From positions 1 through 64,000 of the forward strand of contig NZ_QEKQ01000006.1 of assembly GCF_003096655.1 (NCBI RefSeq): 64,000 nt of DNA. Reading direction: 5' to 3'. Positions within the stretch are counted from its first letter, which is position 1. Each line of letters starts with the position of its first letter. The stretch is from Tamilnaduibacter salinus. Its GTDB lineage: Bacteria; Pseudomonadota; Gammaproteobacteria; Pseudomonadales; Oleiphilaceae. The position numbers and the translations under genes were made by a program. The notes under the pieces were generated by a model. The model made no database searches and was not told where the DNA came from. It saw only the letters and a program-made list of their open reading frames with translations. Of the stretch, positions 44,456 to 51,418 are shown piece by piece.

Positions 44456-45004
44456 TCACTCGCCTTTGCGCTGGCGTTCGAGCATGTCCGGCTGAAGGAT
44501 CTCAATCCAGTAGCCATCAGGGTCTTGGATGAACGCCAGTCCCTTCATCTTCCCGTCATCCGGTCGCTTGACGAACGGCACGCCAAGCGATTCAAACCGC
44601 TCAGCCGCCTGATAGACATCCGGCACGGCCACGCCAATATGGCCAAACCCCTGCGGCTCATCATTGCCATTGTGGTAGGCAAACGATTCGTCGTTCTCCG
44701 TCCCCCAGTTATGCGTCAGCTCCAACATCGCCTCGCGACCAAACGTGAACATCGTTCGATGCCCGTCGTCCGAAGGCACACTTTGCGCCTGACGATCGTC
44801 GAGGTACGCCAGAAAGTAGAGCGTGAACTGCATCTCCGGGAATTCGAGCTTACGGACCAGCCGCATCCCCATCACGCGGGTGTAGAAGTCCAGGCTGCGC
44901 TCCGGGTCCTTGATGCGCATCATGGTCTGATTGAACACGTACCCTTCCGTCGCGGGATCGGCATCCTCGCAAAGACCGGGGGCGTCCTCAAAGTGGCGAG
45001 TCAT
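44456..45004 (-). CDS. gloA: Lactoylglutathione lyase (glyoxalase I)
   Basis: Isomerises the methylglyoxal-glutathione hemithioacetal to S-lactoylglutathione. The 182-residue protein has [27 protein letters not shown] (about 26-52), [10 protein letters not shown] (about 98-107), [12 protein letters not shown] with a metal-ligand His, and [13 protein letters not shown] with a metal-ligand Glu. The insertion and length are those of the larger, eukaryote/Pseudomonas-type GloA. The start at 45004 (MTRHFED) follows AGGAG; the frame extends to 45043 without support. Confidence 0.93.
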
Positions 45005-46016: not shown

Positions 46017-47015
46017 ATGAGACCGCTTCGGGTAACGGGCCTCGCCATCACACTGAGCCTGGTGCATGCACCAGCCATCGCGGACATTCGGGCACTGAAT
46101 GACTCGGTCATGAGCGAGGTGACCGGTCAGTCAGGCGTCACCATCGAACTCCAGAGCCGCATCGACGTCGATCGAATCAGTTGGACCGATGAGGGGACCA
46201 TCGGTATTGACAACCTCACCCTCTCCGACCCGGACGGCTCCCCACTTGATAATCTCAAGGCCACCATCGACATTGCCGGTGACGGCGAGGTGCTGACCCA
46301 TGGCTTCTCGGAACTGGCCCGCCGGGGCGGTCAGGGGCTCATCGACGCCAATGATCCGGACGTTGCGGATGTGATCAGCCGTTACGATCAGGGGGGGACC
46401 TATGGTCGCCAGTACGGGAGTGGCGACGTGGCGATCCACATCGGTCCGACCGACAGTGGCGACGTCACGTCCATCGACGACTACCTGAACGCGGTCGACT
46501 TCGGGCTGACGATCGATGGCATCAACACCAACGGCTCCGAAGGCAGTGCCTCGATGTTTTCCGACATCAATCTGCAGGGCAACATCGGCCCGACGGATCT
46601 GGTGATCACCAACAATGGGAACGGCACCCGCACGTTGGCCAACGGAACGCAGGTGGGCGAGTCGGAGCTGCAGTTCAGCACGCACTTTGATGTTGATCAG
46701 GGCTCTCTGAACTGGGATGCCGCCGACGTAATCCTGCTGTTCAACTTCGCCGGTGTTCGCATTGAGGGCATGCAGATTCACAACCGCCGGGGCCAGGACA
46801 CCACCGGTCACTTTGGCATGGCCTACGCCCAGGCCAACGTCGCACGGGGCATCAGTGCGGCGACCGGGAAGGAGGGGCTCTCCCTGCATGATGTGGAATT
46901 CCGCGCCGACATCGACATGCCCACATTCAAGATTGGCGGGACCAGCATCGGTTCGGTCCAGTTCACCGACTTTGTGATCAAGAACACCAACGCTGTCGTC
47001 TACGGGCATCAATAG
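46017..47015 (+). CDS. Exported DUF6160-like surface protein, unknown function
   Basis: A 332-residue protein with a signal peptide (about 1-22, LVHAPAIA) followed by the motif RALNDSVMSEVTGQSGVTIELQSRIDVDRISWTDEG (about 25-60). This resembles the N-terminal signature of DUF6160-type proteins of Acinetobacter/Marinobacter-like bacteria, which are sometimes linked to pili or surface filaments. The rest is predicted beta-rich with many Asn-Gly and Asp-Gly turns. Family assignment is by eye and function is unknown. Stands alone; 97 bases before the flippase-like gene. Confidence 0.6.
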   Translation: MRPLRVTGLAITLSLVHAPAIADIRALNDSVMSEVTGQSGVTIELQSRIDVDRISWTDEGTIGIDNLTLSDPDGSPLDNLKATIDIAGDGEVLTHGFSELARRGGQGLIDANDPDVADVISRYDQGGTYGRQYGSGDVAIHIGPTDSGDVTSIDDYLNAVDFGLTIDGINTNGSEGSASMFSDINLQGNIGPTDLVITNNGNGTRTLANGTQVGESELQFSTHFDVDQGSLNWDAADVILLFNFAGVRIEGMQIHNRRGQDTTGHFGMAYAQANVARGISAATGKEGLSLHDVEFRADIDMPTFKIGGTSIGSVQFTDFVIKNTNAVVYGHQ

Positions 47016-47112
47016 GCGATTCCGGCCAACATTATTACCAGAACGCCAGATCACTTGCCCTCGCCCCCATGGGTCACAGTAAACTGCTGCCGCTTTGACT
47101 GCGGAGTGGCCC

Positions 47113-48165
47113 ATGGCCCATTACCCTGATGTGTCTCAACAGCCGGACACCTCGGCCAGACGGCTGGCCGGTTTTCTTTCCCTGTTCCTTCTGCTGAGTG
47201 GCCTGGGCACCTGGGCAATCTACGACCGGTTTGCGGGCCGGGACGTCCGCTTTGACGAGCGTCTGCTCGCCCCGGAGACTCTACTGGCCGCGCTGGGGCT
47301 GCTGTTGGTCTATTTCCTGGCAGACGGCCTGCGCCTGCACTTCACGCTGCGAGCCCTCGGTCACCATCTGGCCTTCCGGCCGATATTCCGGCTGGTGTTC
47401 ATCAATATTTTCTTTTCCAACGTGACGCCATTGGCCACCGGTGGCGGTTTTGCACAGATCTGGTACCTGCACAAACGTGGCGTGCCCATCGGTACCGCGA
47501 CCGCCGCCACCACCATCCGGACGATACTGGCCATCCTGTTCATTTTTTCGGTCACGCCCGTCTGTCTGCTGTGGCTGGATGCCCTGCAGGGTCGCCCGGT
47601 CGTCGACAGGCTGTCCGGGCTGCTTGCGCTGCTGATATTGCTGTATCTGGCCTTCTTTCTGGTGGTGTTGTTCCGGACCCGATGGCTTTCGCCGTTACTG
47701 ACCGCCGTGGTCAATGGCCTGCATCGGCTGCACCTGATCAGCGACGCCCGCGCGCATCGCTGGCAATTCAAGCTTCGGCGCGAACTGCTGCGCTTCGCCC
47801 GCAGTTTCTCGACGTATCTCAGGGGCGACTGGCGTTTCGTACTACTCTCAATCGCCTTGACGCTGGTGTTCCTGATCAGCCTGTTCAGTTTCCCGGCACT
47901 GTTGATGTGGGCGCTCGGTTATTCGGTGGACTACGTGACCGTGCTGGGTCTGCTGTTCGTGACCACCTTCATCATGTATTTCGCCCCCACCCCCGGCGCC
48001 TCCGGTATCTCCGAGGGGGTCTTTGGCAGCTTTTTCAGCCCCCTGCTCGGCTCGACGCACCTGGTGCTCGTGACTGTGGCCTGGCGGTTCCTGACCATCT
48101 ACCTGGGCATGCTGATTGGCCTGATCGTTACCCAGTTTGAAGTGACCCGACGAGGACGCTCATGA
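47113..48165 (+). CDS. Flippase-like membrane protein (UPF0104/LPG-synthase TM family)
   Basis: A 350-residue integral membrane protein with about eight helices and family motifs INIFFSNVTPLATGGGFAQIWYL (about 96-118), TTIRTILAILF (about 134-144) and MYFAPTPGASGISEGVFGSFFSP (about 289-311). The family includes AglD-like and MprF flippase-type domains that move or modify lipids. ATG 47113 has GGAG upstream. It overlaps the GT4 fusion gene by four bases, so the two are translated together and may serve one lipid- or glycolipid-linked step; that is inference. Confidence 0.82.
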   Translation: MAHYPDVSQQPDTSARRLAGFLSLFLLLSGLGTWAIYDRFAGRDVRFDERLLAPETLLAALGLLLVYFLADGLRLHFTLRALGHHLAFRPIFRLVFINIFFSNVTPLATGGGFAQIWYLHKRGVPIGTATAATTIRTILAILFIFSVTPVCLLWLDALQGRPVVDRLSGLLALLILLYLAFFLVVLFRTRWLSPLLTAVVNGLHRLHLISDARAHRWQFKLRRELLRFARSFSTYLRGDWRFVLLSIALTLVFLISLFSFPALLMWALGYSVDYVTVLGLLFVTTFIMYFAPTPGASGISEGVFGSFFSPLLGSTHLVLVTVAWRFLTIYLGMLIGLIVTQFEVTRRGRS

Positions 48166-50405
48166 TCCAGCGCCGGTCCCTGAAAGCGCTTTACTACCTC
48201 TGCCTGCTCGCGGTTGCTGGCCTGCTGGGCTACAAGGTCTACCTGAATTTCTTCGAGCCGGAGTTCGAGGCGGTGCACGCGGAACAGGTGGAGCGCCTGC
48301 ACAGCGCTTTGGAGGGCAAAACATCGTTCCGGTTCGCCGTTGTCGGGAACATCAACAACTCAATCGGGGTGTTTGAACGCCGCATTGTCCCCATGCTCAA
48401 TTCGACTGACCCGGCGTTCGTCGTCTCCCCCGGCAATGCGGTGAGCAGCGGTGGAGAAGACAAGTACCGGGCTATCCACGGGTCACTCGGCTATCTGGAC
48501 ATGCCCTATCTGCTGACCTTCGGTGACAACGAATTCAGCAACTTCGGCAGCTTCCGGTTCTACAAGCACTTCGGACCGCATTTCTGGACGGTGCAGGTGG
48601 CCAACAGCCGCCTGATCTTTCTCGACTCAACCGGCAAGACACCCTACCGCTGGCAGCTGCGCTGGCTCGGCGACCTGCTGCGCAGCGACACCAGCAAACA
48701 TACGTTCGTGTTCCTCGGACACCCACTACGCAAACCGGACGCCGACCCCCTCTTCGACTACGAGGACAACGATCTCAAGCCGGACGCGTTCCGCCAGGCA
48801 CTGATCGAGCAGTTCGAAGCTCACCAGGTGGACGTCGTTTTCTCCGCGAACCTGCCCCTTTACGACAGCCAGACGGTGAACGGGGTACGGTACATCACCA
48901 CCGGGGGTGGCGGCGGCCTGGTCATGAACAACGACACGAGCTTCTATCACTACCTGACCGTCACCGTAACCCCGGAAGACATCGGGCTTGAGCTGCACAA
49001 ACTCGACATTGGCCAGCAACCGATTCTGAAAACGCTTGAGAGCCTGTGGTTCTTTGTCCACTCCCTGTTCTTCGTGGGCTATCTGAACTTCATCCTGATT
49101 CTGTGTTTCTTTATCGCCCTCGCGATCCGGCTTCACGCGCTGGTTTTCGTTGACCGCGATTATTACCCGGACTTTGATCTGGACCCCTCGCCCTGGCAGC
49201 AACGGACCCTGCGCATCGCCCAGTTCACCAATAACTATCTGCCGTTCATTGGCGGTGTGCCGTTGTCGATTGACCGGCTGCACCGCGGTCTGAAACAGGC
49301 CGGAGACAAGGTCCGGATCGTCGCACCGCGATACCGTGACCAGCCGCAGCCGGAGGAGGAGCCGGACGTGATACGGGTCCCCTCCATCCTCGCCATGGGC
49401 GAGAATCGCGAGTTCCGACTGGCCAATATTTTTCTGCGTCGCATTCGTCGGCAGATCAAGGACGTCAATCCAGACCTGATCCACGTGCATCACCCCTTCT
49501 GGCTCGGGTCACTGGGGTTGTGGATCGCAAAGATCATGCGGGTACCGGTCGTCTACACCTATCACACCCGGCTGGAACACTACGCGCACTTTGTCCCCCT
49601 GCCGGGCCGGCTGTTCCGGAATCTGATTTCCCATGCCCTGATCAAGCGCTTCGCCAATCGCTGCGACGGGGTCATTGTGCCGACCTATTCGGCCGAGGAA
49701 TACCTGCGCATGATCGGGGTCAAGAGCCTGACGTTCGTTCAGCCGACCGGCATCGAGTACGACCGGTTCCGGGCGGTTTCCCATTCGGCGGTGGAATCGC
49801 TCCGGCAGGAACTGGGTATCGGCGATGAACATGTATTTGTCAGCGTGTCCCGTCTGTCGACCGAGAAGAACATTGATTTCATGATCGATGCCATCGCCAG
49901 CCTTCGGGAAAAGACCGACCATCGGTTCCGCTTCCTGATGATTGGCGAGGGACACGAACACGCCCGGCTGGCCGAGCGTATCCGCGACAAAGGGATTGAG
50001 GGCTGCTTCACGCTCGTCGGTGCCGTACCACCGGACCGGATGCCCGTGTACTACTCACTGGGCGACTCATTCCTGTTCGCCTCAAAGTCCGAGACTCAGG
50101 GCATGGTCATCCTGGAGGCTATGGCGGCCGGTCTGCCGGTGGTGGCCGTGCGCTCCAGCGGTATCGATGATGTGGTGCGTGACGGCTATAACGGCTTCAA
50201 GACACCGGAGAAGATTGGTCCATGGCGGGACTCGGCACTGCGATTGATGTCGGACGAGCCGCTGCATCAGACGCTGTCGGCAAACGCGCTGTCGTTCTCG
50301 AAAGACTTCTCGGTGGACCACTTTGCGCGGGATGTGCACGGTATCTATGCTGAAGTACTCGCGGATTTCCACAAGAAGAAAACGGATTCAGACCACGATT
50401 CGTAA
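48162..50405 (+). CDS. Degenerate phosphoesterase domain fused to a GT4 glycosyltransferase
   Basis: A 747-residue protein. A membrane helix (about 9-28) is followed by a calcineurin-like phosphoesterase fold (about 55-290), membrane helix region (about 300-335), and a GT4 glycosyltransferase (about 350-735). GT4 features are FTNNYLPFIGGVPLSIDRLHRGLKQ, VYTYHTRLEHYAHFVPLP, TGIEYDRF and the E-x7-E of SETQGMVILE; the pattern resembles diacylglycerol glucosyltransferases. The phosphoesterase part has lost its metal ligands: GDxH is GNIN (62-65), GD is GN (91-92), GNHE is GDNE (121-124), and GHxH is SANLP (228-232). Only GH at 186-187 remains. It is probably a binding, not catalytic, domain on the outer side of the membrane. 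Overlaps the flippase-like gene by four bases. Confidence 0.85.
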   Translation: MIQRRSLKALYYLCLLAVAGLLGYKVYLNFFEPEFEAVHAEQVERLHSALEGKTSFRFAVVGNINNSIGVFERRIVPMLNSTDPAFVVSPGNAVSSGGEDKYRAIHGSLGYLDMPYLLTFGDNEFSNFGSFRFYKHFGPHFWTVQVANSRLIFLDSTGKTPYRWQLRWLGDLLRSDTSKHTFVFLGHPLRKPDADPLFDYEDNDLKPDAFRQALIEQFEAHQVDVVFSANLPLYDSQTVNGVRYITTGGGGGLVMNNDTSFYHYLTVTVTPEDIGLELHKLDIGQQPILKTLESLWFFVHSLFFVGYLNFILILCFFIALAIRLHALVFVDRDYYPDFDLDPSPWQQRTLRIAQFTNNYLPFIGGVPLSIDRLHRGLKQAGDKVRIVAPRYRDQPQPEEEPDVIRVPSILAMGENREFRLANIFLRRIRRQIKDVNPDLIHVHHPFWLGSLGLWIAKIMRVPVVYTYHTRLEHYAHFVPLPGRLFRNLISHALIKRFANRCDGVIVPTYSAEEYLRMIGVKSLTFVQPTGIEYDRFRAVSHSAVESLRQELGIGDEHVFVSVSRLSTEKNIDFMIDAIASLREKTDHRFRFLMIGEGHEHARLAERIRDKGIEGCFTLVGAVPPDRMPVYYSLGDSFLFASKSETQGMVILEAMAAGLPVVAVRSSGIDDVVRDGYNGFKTPEKIGPWRDSALRLMSDEPLHQTLSANALSFSKDFSVDHFARDVHGIYAEVLADFHKKKTDSDHDS

Positions 50406-50473: not shown

Positions 50474-51418
50474 ATGAGCGAAATACCCGTCGGCATCAGC
50501 GCCTGTCTTCTGGGCGCCCAAGTCCGCCATGATGGCGGTCACAAGCATTCCCGGTTCTGTACCGGCATTCTGGCGAAGCATTTTTCCTTCAAGTCGGTCT
50601 GCCCGGAACTGGAAGCCGGCCTAGGCGTTCCCCGCCCGACCATCCATCTGCGCCAGTACGACGATGGTCTGCGTCTGACGGAAACGAAGAACGGGACCGA
50701 CCACACCCAGCGGATGCGTGACTGGATCACCGGCATCATGCCCGAGCTGGCGCACCTGCGCGGCTACATCCTGATGGCCAAGTCGCCCAGTTGTGGCATG
50801 GAACGAATCAAGGTGCATAACCCGGAGGGCAACGTCATTGCCCGGGACGGCCGCGGCCTGTTTGCCGACGCCCTGATCCAGGCGTTTCCGGATATGCCGG
50901 TCGAGGAGGAAGGCCGCCTGAATGACGCCCGGCTTCGGGAGAACTTCATCGAGCGGGTTTACGCCTACGACGACTGGATGACCCTGCGGGAAAACGGCCT
51001 GACCCGCGGCGGGCTCGTGGACTTCCACACCCGGCACAAGTTTCAGTTACTGGCCCACGACGAGCCGACCTATCGCCGGTTGGGCCCGATGATCGGTGAC
51101 CTGAAATCCGCACCGCTGGAGGACATCGCCGACGAGTACATCCGCGAGTTCATGGCCGCCATGAGCCAGAAGATCAAGCCCGGCGCCCACGTGAACGTCA
51201 TGCAGCACATGATGGGCTTCCTGCGCGATGCGTTGTCGGACGCGGACCGGCAGATGCTGATGGAACAGATTGAAGCCTACCGCCGCGAGGAAGTGCCCCT
51301 GGTCGTCCCGATGACGCTGCTGCGCATGGCCCAGCGCCGCGAACCGGTCGACTACCTGGAGAAACAGCAGTACCTCACGCCGTACCCGGACGAGCTGGGA
51401 TTGCGCAACCAGGTCTGA
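50474..51418 (+). CDS. DUF523-DUF1722 (YbgA-type) protein
   Basis: A 314-residue two-domain protein. DUF523 (about 1-140) has GISACLLGAQVRHDGGHKHS, the cysteine-containing SVCPELEAGLGVPRP and LMAKSPSCGMERIKV. DUF1722 (about 175-310) has LVDFHTRHKFQLLAHDEPTYRRLGPMI. The three conserved cysteines suggest metal or cluster binding. DUF1722 proteins are linked to light- or stress-responsive operons with photolyase or MerR in other genomes; none is here. Start at 50474 (MSEIPVGISAC). Confidence 0.88.
   Translation: MSEIPVGISACLLGAQVRHDGGHKHSRFCTGILAKHFSFKSVCPELEAGLGVPRPTIHLRQYDDGLRLTETKNGTDHTQRMRDWITGIMPELAHLRGYILMAKSPSCGMERIKVHNPEGNVIARDGRGLFADALIQAFPDMPVEEEGRLNDARLRENFIERVYAYDDWMTLRENGLTRGGLVDFHTRHKFQLLAHDEPTYRRLGPMIGDLKSAPLEDIADEYIREFMAAMSQKIKPGAHVNVMQHMMGFLRDALSDADRQMLMEQIEAYRREEVPLVVPMTLLRMAQRREPVDYLEKQQYLTPYPDELGLRNQV

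Follow-up and report, generated by a model that had tools for sequence, protein, structure and literature searches.

The first 64,000 nucleotides of a Tamilnaduibacter salinus contig (NZ_QEKQ01000006.1, assembly GCF_003096655.1; hereafter the window) encode a fusion protein that joins a calcineurin-like phosphoesterase fold to a family 4 glycosyltransferase (GT4). In every homologue seen, the phosphoesterase-like domain (N-domain) lacks its metal site. This loss is not decay: the former active site has been rebuilt and is strongly selected in the new form. The GT4 residues are intact, and the gene is translationally coupled to one for a flippase-like protein. With slightly less than even confidence, we read the pair as a two-gene glycolipid module, in which a periplasmic pseudo-phosphoesterase would bind a ligand and control a cytoplasmic GT4. 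Its elements are the following.

47095..48165, + strand: flippase-like gene (LPG_synthase_TM / UPF0104-YbhN type; PF03706, TIGR00374), 356 amino acids, TTG start
48162..48165, + strand: ATGA start/stop overlap (translational coupling), seen in the sequence
48162..50405, + strand: open reading frame (ORF) of the fusion protein, 747 amino acids, ATG start
48174..48233, + strand: first transmembrane segment (TM1), about residues 5-24, hydropathy peak at residue 15, N-terminus probably inside
48324..49016, + strand: pseudo-metallophosphoesterase domain, residues 55-285, predicted on the periplasmic side
48345..48362, + strand: pseudo-motif 1, GNINNS, residues 62-67 (canonical counterpart GDxH)
48426..48470, + strand: pseudo-motif 2, SxGNAVSxGGEDKYR, residues 89-103 (canonical counterpart GD)
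48510..48533, + strand: pseudo-motif 3, LLTFGxxE, residues 117-124 (canonical counterpart GNHE)
48717..48725, + strand: motif 4, GHP, residues 186-188, the sole ligand motif largely kept
48843..48857, + strand: pseudo-motif 5, SANLP, residues 228-232 (canonical counterpart GHxH)
49041..49145, + strand: membrane segment with amphipathic start (ESLWFF ... NFIL), residues 294-328, from hydropathy and moment
49209..50366, + strand: GT4 glycosyltransferase domain, residues 350-735, predicted on the cytoplasmic side

The phosphoesterase-like domain and its rebuilt site

Family models do not recognise the N-domain of the window protein: residues 1-333 gave no Pfam match at E<=1 and no NCBIfam match at E<=0.1, and the whole protein had no PF00149 match at E<=1. 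Nine of 11 orthologous N-domains matched PF00149, weakly (best E 2.6e-5). With the single sequence as query, the PDB yielded just weak matches to purple acid phosphatases (E 0.27), a profile of 11 orthologues reached E values down to 7e-4, and a search with the N-domain profile also retrieved ordinary metallophosphoesterases. An AlphaFold2 (AF2) model of residues 32-290, based on 56 orthologues, had a predicted local distance difference test score (pLDDT) of 81 and a predicted template modelling score (pTM) of 0.84. Foldseek placed Rv0805, GpdQ, GAP50 and purple acid phosphatases at the top of its matches (E 3e-11 to 2e-10), with both GAP50 and Vps29 chains in the list, and VIA-align superposed the model on GpdQ (2zo9) with Z 21.5 and a root-mean-square deviation of 2.8 over 217 aligned residues. 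The model thus has the calcineurin-like metallophosphoesterase fold of PF00149. The prediction is a confident one and bears out the phosphoesterase fold that a first-pass annotation of this DNA had placed in residues 55-290. That annotation's order of elements (phosphoesterase-like, membrane helices, GT4) was also borne out. TM1 is followed by the calcineurin-like fold (~55-285), a membrane segment (~294-328) and the GT4 domain (~350-735); a full-length model (pLDDT 74, pTM 0.50, 11 sequences), used solely for the order of elements, has helices at 287-304 and 307-329.

The fold has been kept without its metal site. We take the di-metal ligand set to be D, H, D, N, H, H, H, as seen in ordinary relatives here. 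Across 96 distinct full-length sequences (identical ones removed), two of eight canonical ligand positions are kept in 55 rows, one in 32 and none in nine; the maximum of two also holds in a broader 44-row set that includes Halomonas-like and Rhodobacterales sequences. Position 63 is never Asp (0/96), and position 92 is Asp in L086 alone, so that 95 of the 96 rows have lost it. Counts over 120 orthologous ORFs, which include some genomes twice (as locus and G handles), tell the same story: N63 and N66 are present in all 120 and N92 in 119, with D63 in none and D92 in one. E124 is invariant (120/120), N122 occurs in four, and position 123 is His in 59 and Asn in 53. In motif 5, N230 is found in 111 of these ORFs, H230 in four and H232 in three. 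In the Rhodobacterales plasmid rows of the broader set (L173, L174, L176), Glu and not Asp replaces Asn at position 63. The ordinary distant relatives retrieved by the same profile (44 sequences) nearly always have the canonical residues where they cover the site: D63 in 4/4, D92 and N122 in 32/32 each, H123 in 31/32, and H230 and H232 in 13/16 each. No intermediate homologue with a live metal site was found in 369 genomes of the class sample and 398 of the phylum sample, and the profile scores jump from about 48 bits for ordinary phosphoesterases to about 400 for the fusion.

The first-pass annotation had read the motifs GNIN, GN, GDNE and SANLP as replaced metal ligands. All four readings are correct, and the loss it proposed extends to every homologue seen, none of which retains an intact ligand set. 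Its survey of the motifs overlooked GHP at 186-188, whose His187 is retained in 99 of the 120 ORFs. It had suggested a homologue search to see whether fusion and ligand loss are conserved, and both are: the phosphoesterase-like domain is present in all full-length homologues aligned, from Marinobacter to Rhodobacterales plasmids.

The pseudo-active-site loops (GNINNS, SAGNAVSxGGEDKY, LTFGxxE and TGGAGG) are the most conserved part of the N-domain. The 12 columns of motifs 1-3 have a mean entropy of 0.33 against 1.05 for the whole domain, a value as low being reached by 20 of 20,000 random 12-column sets. The lowest-entropy five-residue windows start at 91, 117, 62, 63, 89, 90 and 247 and correspond to the loops of the former active site and to the TGGAGG turn, and pseudo-motif 2 has the lowest entropy in the domain. 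The codons of the three Asn residues vary synonymously while the residue stays constant (AAC/AAT 67/28 at N63, 60/35 at N66 and 46/48 at N92, with one GAT at position 92). Further polar residues of the N-domain are invariant or nearly so (N66, S67, Y102, E124, D155, H263). The label of a dead domain therefore says too little, since the site is strongly selected in its new form.

Glycosyltransferase, membrane topology and flippase-like partner

The GT4 assignment is clear, with Pfam domains above their gathering cut-offs in residues 363-709 (PF00534, 112.5 bits against 26.4; PF13439, 109.3 against 28.5). G365, H468, R564, K569, E644 and E652 are each present in 96/96 rows. We take E644/E652 to be the E-x7-E motif and R564/K569 the phosphate-binding R/K of GT4, so both motif pairs are complete throughout. 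Because these residues are intact in all rows, the glycosyltransferase half is probably active. The best family model for the domain is alpha-monoglucosyldiacylglycerol synthase (NF049988), matched over the full domain with 210.3 bits, below its curated cut-off of 400.

The mean net charge over the 96 rows is +2.6 for residues 1-10 and -2.2 for residues 32-50. By the positive-inside rule, this pattern puts the N-terminus inside and the phosphoesterase-like domain outside, which supports the earlier proposal that the domain is external to the membrane. The second hydrophobic stretch (~294-328) would return the chain, so that the GT4 domain is predicted on the cytoplasmic side, where it could reach nucleotide sugars. 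These 35 residues could in principle form a hairpin instead; GT4 would then lie outside, which is unlikely for such an enzyme.

The partner protein belongs to the LPG_synthase_TM / UPF0104 family, with 129.3 bits for PF03706 (cut-off 33.4) and 96 bits for TIGR00374 (cut-off 43.2). Its stop codon and the start codon of the fusion share the ATGA at 48162-48165, bearing out the translational coupling suggested by the first-pass annotation. A survey of 97 related genomes, the window's own included, found 28 with the full-length fusion and an adjacent flippase-like gene and 69 with neither (fusion at least 885 bits, flippase at least 394 bits, adjacency by coordinates). Among 80 loci (L007-L086), the overlap is ATGA in 60 and GTGA in six (66 with a 4-nucleotide overlap), the spacing differs in eight, and six loci lack the flippase gene. 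Nine fusion genomes have no flippase match at E<=0.001, namely those behind L038, L041, L067, L072 and L081, together with G255, G458, G750 and G831. L021 is not among the nine, as its genome has a flippase fragment on a different contig, and for the Halomonas plasmid L175 absence was judged at the locus only. Flippase-less rows are scattered in the tree. The partner is therefore usual and not obligatory, and flipping by it would not be essential to the fusion.

In one flippase-less, Halomonas-like group (L175, L180-L183), the ESLWFF entry helix and the GGEDKY and FYHY motifs are changed jointly. The changed positions might mark contacts with the flippase, though they come from a single clade.

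Distribution, plasmid copies and neighbouring genes

N-domain profile matches above 400 bits occur in seven of 369 class-sample genomes and seven of 398 phylum-sample genomes, both including the window's own. A tblastn search found 33 plasmid records (30 Pseudosulfitobacter and one each of Sulfitobacter, Alloyangia and Halomonas). Four of them were inspected; flippase and fusion overlap by 4 nucleotides in three, and the fourth is unannotated. The annotated copies among these four label the fusion just 'glycosyltransferase'. In the tree, the Rhodobacterales rows cluster in a single group with good support. Two fusion loci (L067 and L072) lie in metagenome-assembled genomes of Thermodesulfobacteriota, beyond the phylum of the window's relatives; contamination of these assemblies is possible, though the L067 fusion has other genes around it. 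No phage copy of the fusion was found, PHROGs gave no match, and we found no description of such a fusion in the open-licence PMC literature.

On a Pseudosulfitobacter plasmid (L174, 6101-12535), IS3 and IS110 transposase genes flank the two-gene unit, as though it had been mobilised as a cassette. Ion-transport genes adjoin the pair on Rhodobacterales plasmids: a calcium/sodium antiporter in L173 (4338-11229) and L176 (5551-15824), accompanied in L173 by CorA and an alkaline phosphatase D family gene and in L176 by YbaL, TerC and a hemolysin-family gene. Such neighbours could point to an envelope stress island related to ions or alkalinity.

Beyond the flippase, no neighbour family recurred across many genera in the loci compared, save for local synteny; the simple ORF picker used here skipped some genes, including the flippases of L179, L174, L176 and L186, and in L179 the flippase match directly adjoins the fusion. 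In the window, a DUF6160 protein (46017-47015) weakly matches a FilA-like pilus protein (PF19657, 74.9 bits; NF050077, 30 of 220), and many Marinobacter loci have such a gene upstream of the pair. Directly downstream (50474-51418) is a 2-thiouracil desulfurase (TudS-like) plus DUF1722 protein, whose synteny extends to most of the Marinobacter loci.

Possible roles of the rebuilt pocket and related systems

Glycosyltransferases paired with flippase-like genes are known from glycolipid synthesis. According to the excerpts of the two papers, the gpgSDF operon of Pseudomonas aeruginosa (GlcN-PG) combines a glycolipid glycosyltransferase with a flippase-like gene (PMC12713373), as does hexSDF of Clostridioides difficile, which yields a glycolipid product (PMC10128005). 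On the strength of this pairing and of the best glycosyltransferase family model, we read the two genes as encoding the synthase and the exporter of a glycolipid. The GT4 domain, held at the cytoplasmic face by two membrane segments, would glycosylate a membrane lipid, with a hexose the most likely sugar and diacylglycerol the most likely acceptor, and the flippase-like protein would move the product to the outer leaflet. The N-domain has given up its di-metal centre for a pocket rebuilt with Asn, Glu, Ser and Gly, which would bind a ligand, most likely an outer-leaflet lipid headgroup (the flipped product or a phospholipid). The state of this ligand could be relayed via the membrane segment to GT4 as feedback, a built-in transmembrane sensor thus setting the glycolipid output.

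Several points weigh against this proposal. The AF2 model is least certain in the active-site loops (pLDDT ~47-61 at 122-141 and 59 at 92-101) and therefore does not fix the pocket geometry. Conservation of the pocket fails to separate a small ligand from a protein partner. The glycosyltransferase scores below the curated cut-off of every lipid-glycosyltransferase model seen (210 against 400, 117 against 480), so its acceptor may differ, and the nine genomes without a flippase match count here as well.

The main rival to sensing is a docking scaffold: a rigid, VPS29-like protein-protein module that would link GT4 with the flippase or some envelope protein, its pocket holding a protein loop. 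We consider this somewhat unlikely. It has a precedent in VPS29, which in the part of the source consulted has an inactive metallophosphatase fold and serves as a scaffold in retromer (PMC3101248), and GAP50 and Vps29 are among the Foldseek matches. The flippase accompanies the fusion in 28/28 related genomes, and distances of N-domain and flippase correlate beyond those explained by the glycosyltransferase (partial r 0.37, 0/500 permutations as high, 90 rows), which is weak evidence. However, the partial correlation between GT4 and flippase is higher (0.67), shared descent gives such correlations too, and among the nine fusion genomes with no flippase match those of L038, L041, L067, L072 and L081 keep the pocket essentially unchanged. 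Persistence without the flippase also speaks against a lipid-handling domain without signalling. At the outer leaflet, such a domain would present a lipid (acceptor or product) to the flippase or to a downstream enzyme, or withdraw it. This role is improbable, even though the two neighbouring genes of one pathway, the conserved pocket and the helix at 287-304, whose amphipathic start lies next to the membrane, would all suit it.

Catalysis could also have been kept or gained with another metal set or with none, through E124, D155, H187, H263 and the Asn cluster. The many invariant or near-invariant polar residues and the frequent H187 (99/120) and H123 (59/120) would fit a hidden enzyme; with the key ligands gone (D63 0/120, D92 1/120) and H187, H123, H230 and H232 varying freely, we hold it to be very unlikely. 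Least plausible of all is a passive relic, the N-domain being a decaying passenger or simple membrane anchor. Overall it is less conserved (mean entropy 1.05) than the glycosyltransferase, whose halves have values of 0.67 and 0.97, but a relic would be expected to lose its former active-site loops first, and here conservation is highest at the former active site of a domain found in every full-length homologue aligned. The entropy and codon data largely refute this explanation.

How bacteria monitor outer-leaflet lipid composition and tune their glycolipid synthesis accordingly is poorly understood. If the sensor proposal is true, transmembrane control of lipid synthesis could be tested in one protein, within a minimal two-gene unit and in culturable marine bacteria. 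The few known catalytically dead metallophosphoesterases would, moreover, be joined by a bacterial, membrane-linked one with a rebuilt site under selection. A broader claim, which we regard as doubtful, is that the fusion represents a new class of transmembrane controllers of glycolipids, each made of a single protein. These would read the outer leaflet with a ligand-specific pocket, gate the glycosyltransferase directly and correct lipid composition without a two-component system, spreading with the flippase on plasmids as a mobile module.

The first-pass annotation had compared the fusion with PlcP and Agt, which act in one membrane-lipid pathway as a phosphoesterase and a glycosyltransferase. 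In the parts of the sources consulted, these are separate enzymes with Pho boxes (PMC4796936, PMC8528852). PlcP and Agt are two active enzymes; here there is one protein, and it lacks the metal site. As an origin, the analogy was not supported: among solved structures, GpdQ/Rv0805 and purple acid phosphatases have the nearest folds, and the tests of genomic context were negative. Eight stand-alone GT4 relatives (31-36% identical) had neither a phosphoesterase nor a flippase nearby (0/8 loci; a Rosetta-stone test), and none of six metallophosphoesterase loci in the own genome had a GT4 gene within ~1.5 kb. No Pho-box match was found near the pair; the nearest with <=3 mismatches is at 44542-44559, ~2.5 kb upstream, and such matches occur in the window at chance level (7 found, 4.7 expected). 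Lacking a metal site, a nearby Pho box and any phosphoesterase/GT4 adjacency in the loci compared, the link is not supported, the PlcP sequence itself not being among the queries.

The GpgSDF system is similar in that a GT4-type lipid glycosyltransferase shares an operon with a UPF0104/YbhN flippase-like gene. It differs in having a separate deacetylase gene, and GpgS is predicted to be cytoplasmic, with GT4 the sole domain listed in the table of that paper (PMC12713373). The window proteins stay below the cut-offs of the corresponding models (GpgS, 117.2 of 480; GpgF, 37.7 of 320). In one relative without the fusion (G095:C1:2794812-2797723), a GT4 gene and a weak flippase match are separated by ~1 kb, which would be compatible with a gpgSDF-like operon. 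In the HexSDF system, HexS carries the annotation monogalactosyldiacylglycerol synthase and the third gene is a deacetylase, with no phosphoesterase-like domain mentioned in the excerpt of the source. NF049988, the top full-length family match of the GT4 domain, covers a glycosyltransferase only. VPS29 and GAP50, the latter an anchor by its PDB title, resemble the N-domain in using a metallophosphoesterase fold without catalysis, as far as the consulted text on VPS29 goes. Both are eukaryotic, carry no glycosyltransferase fusion and have no close sequence kinship with it. GpdQ, Rv0805 and the purple acid phosphatases share its fold (Z 20-21.5) at 14-19% identity in structural alignments, and differ from it as active di-metal enzymes.

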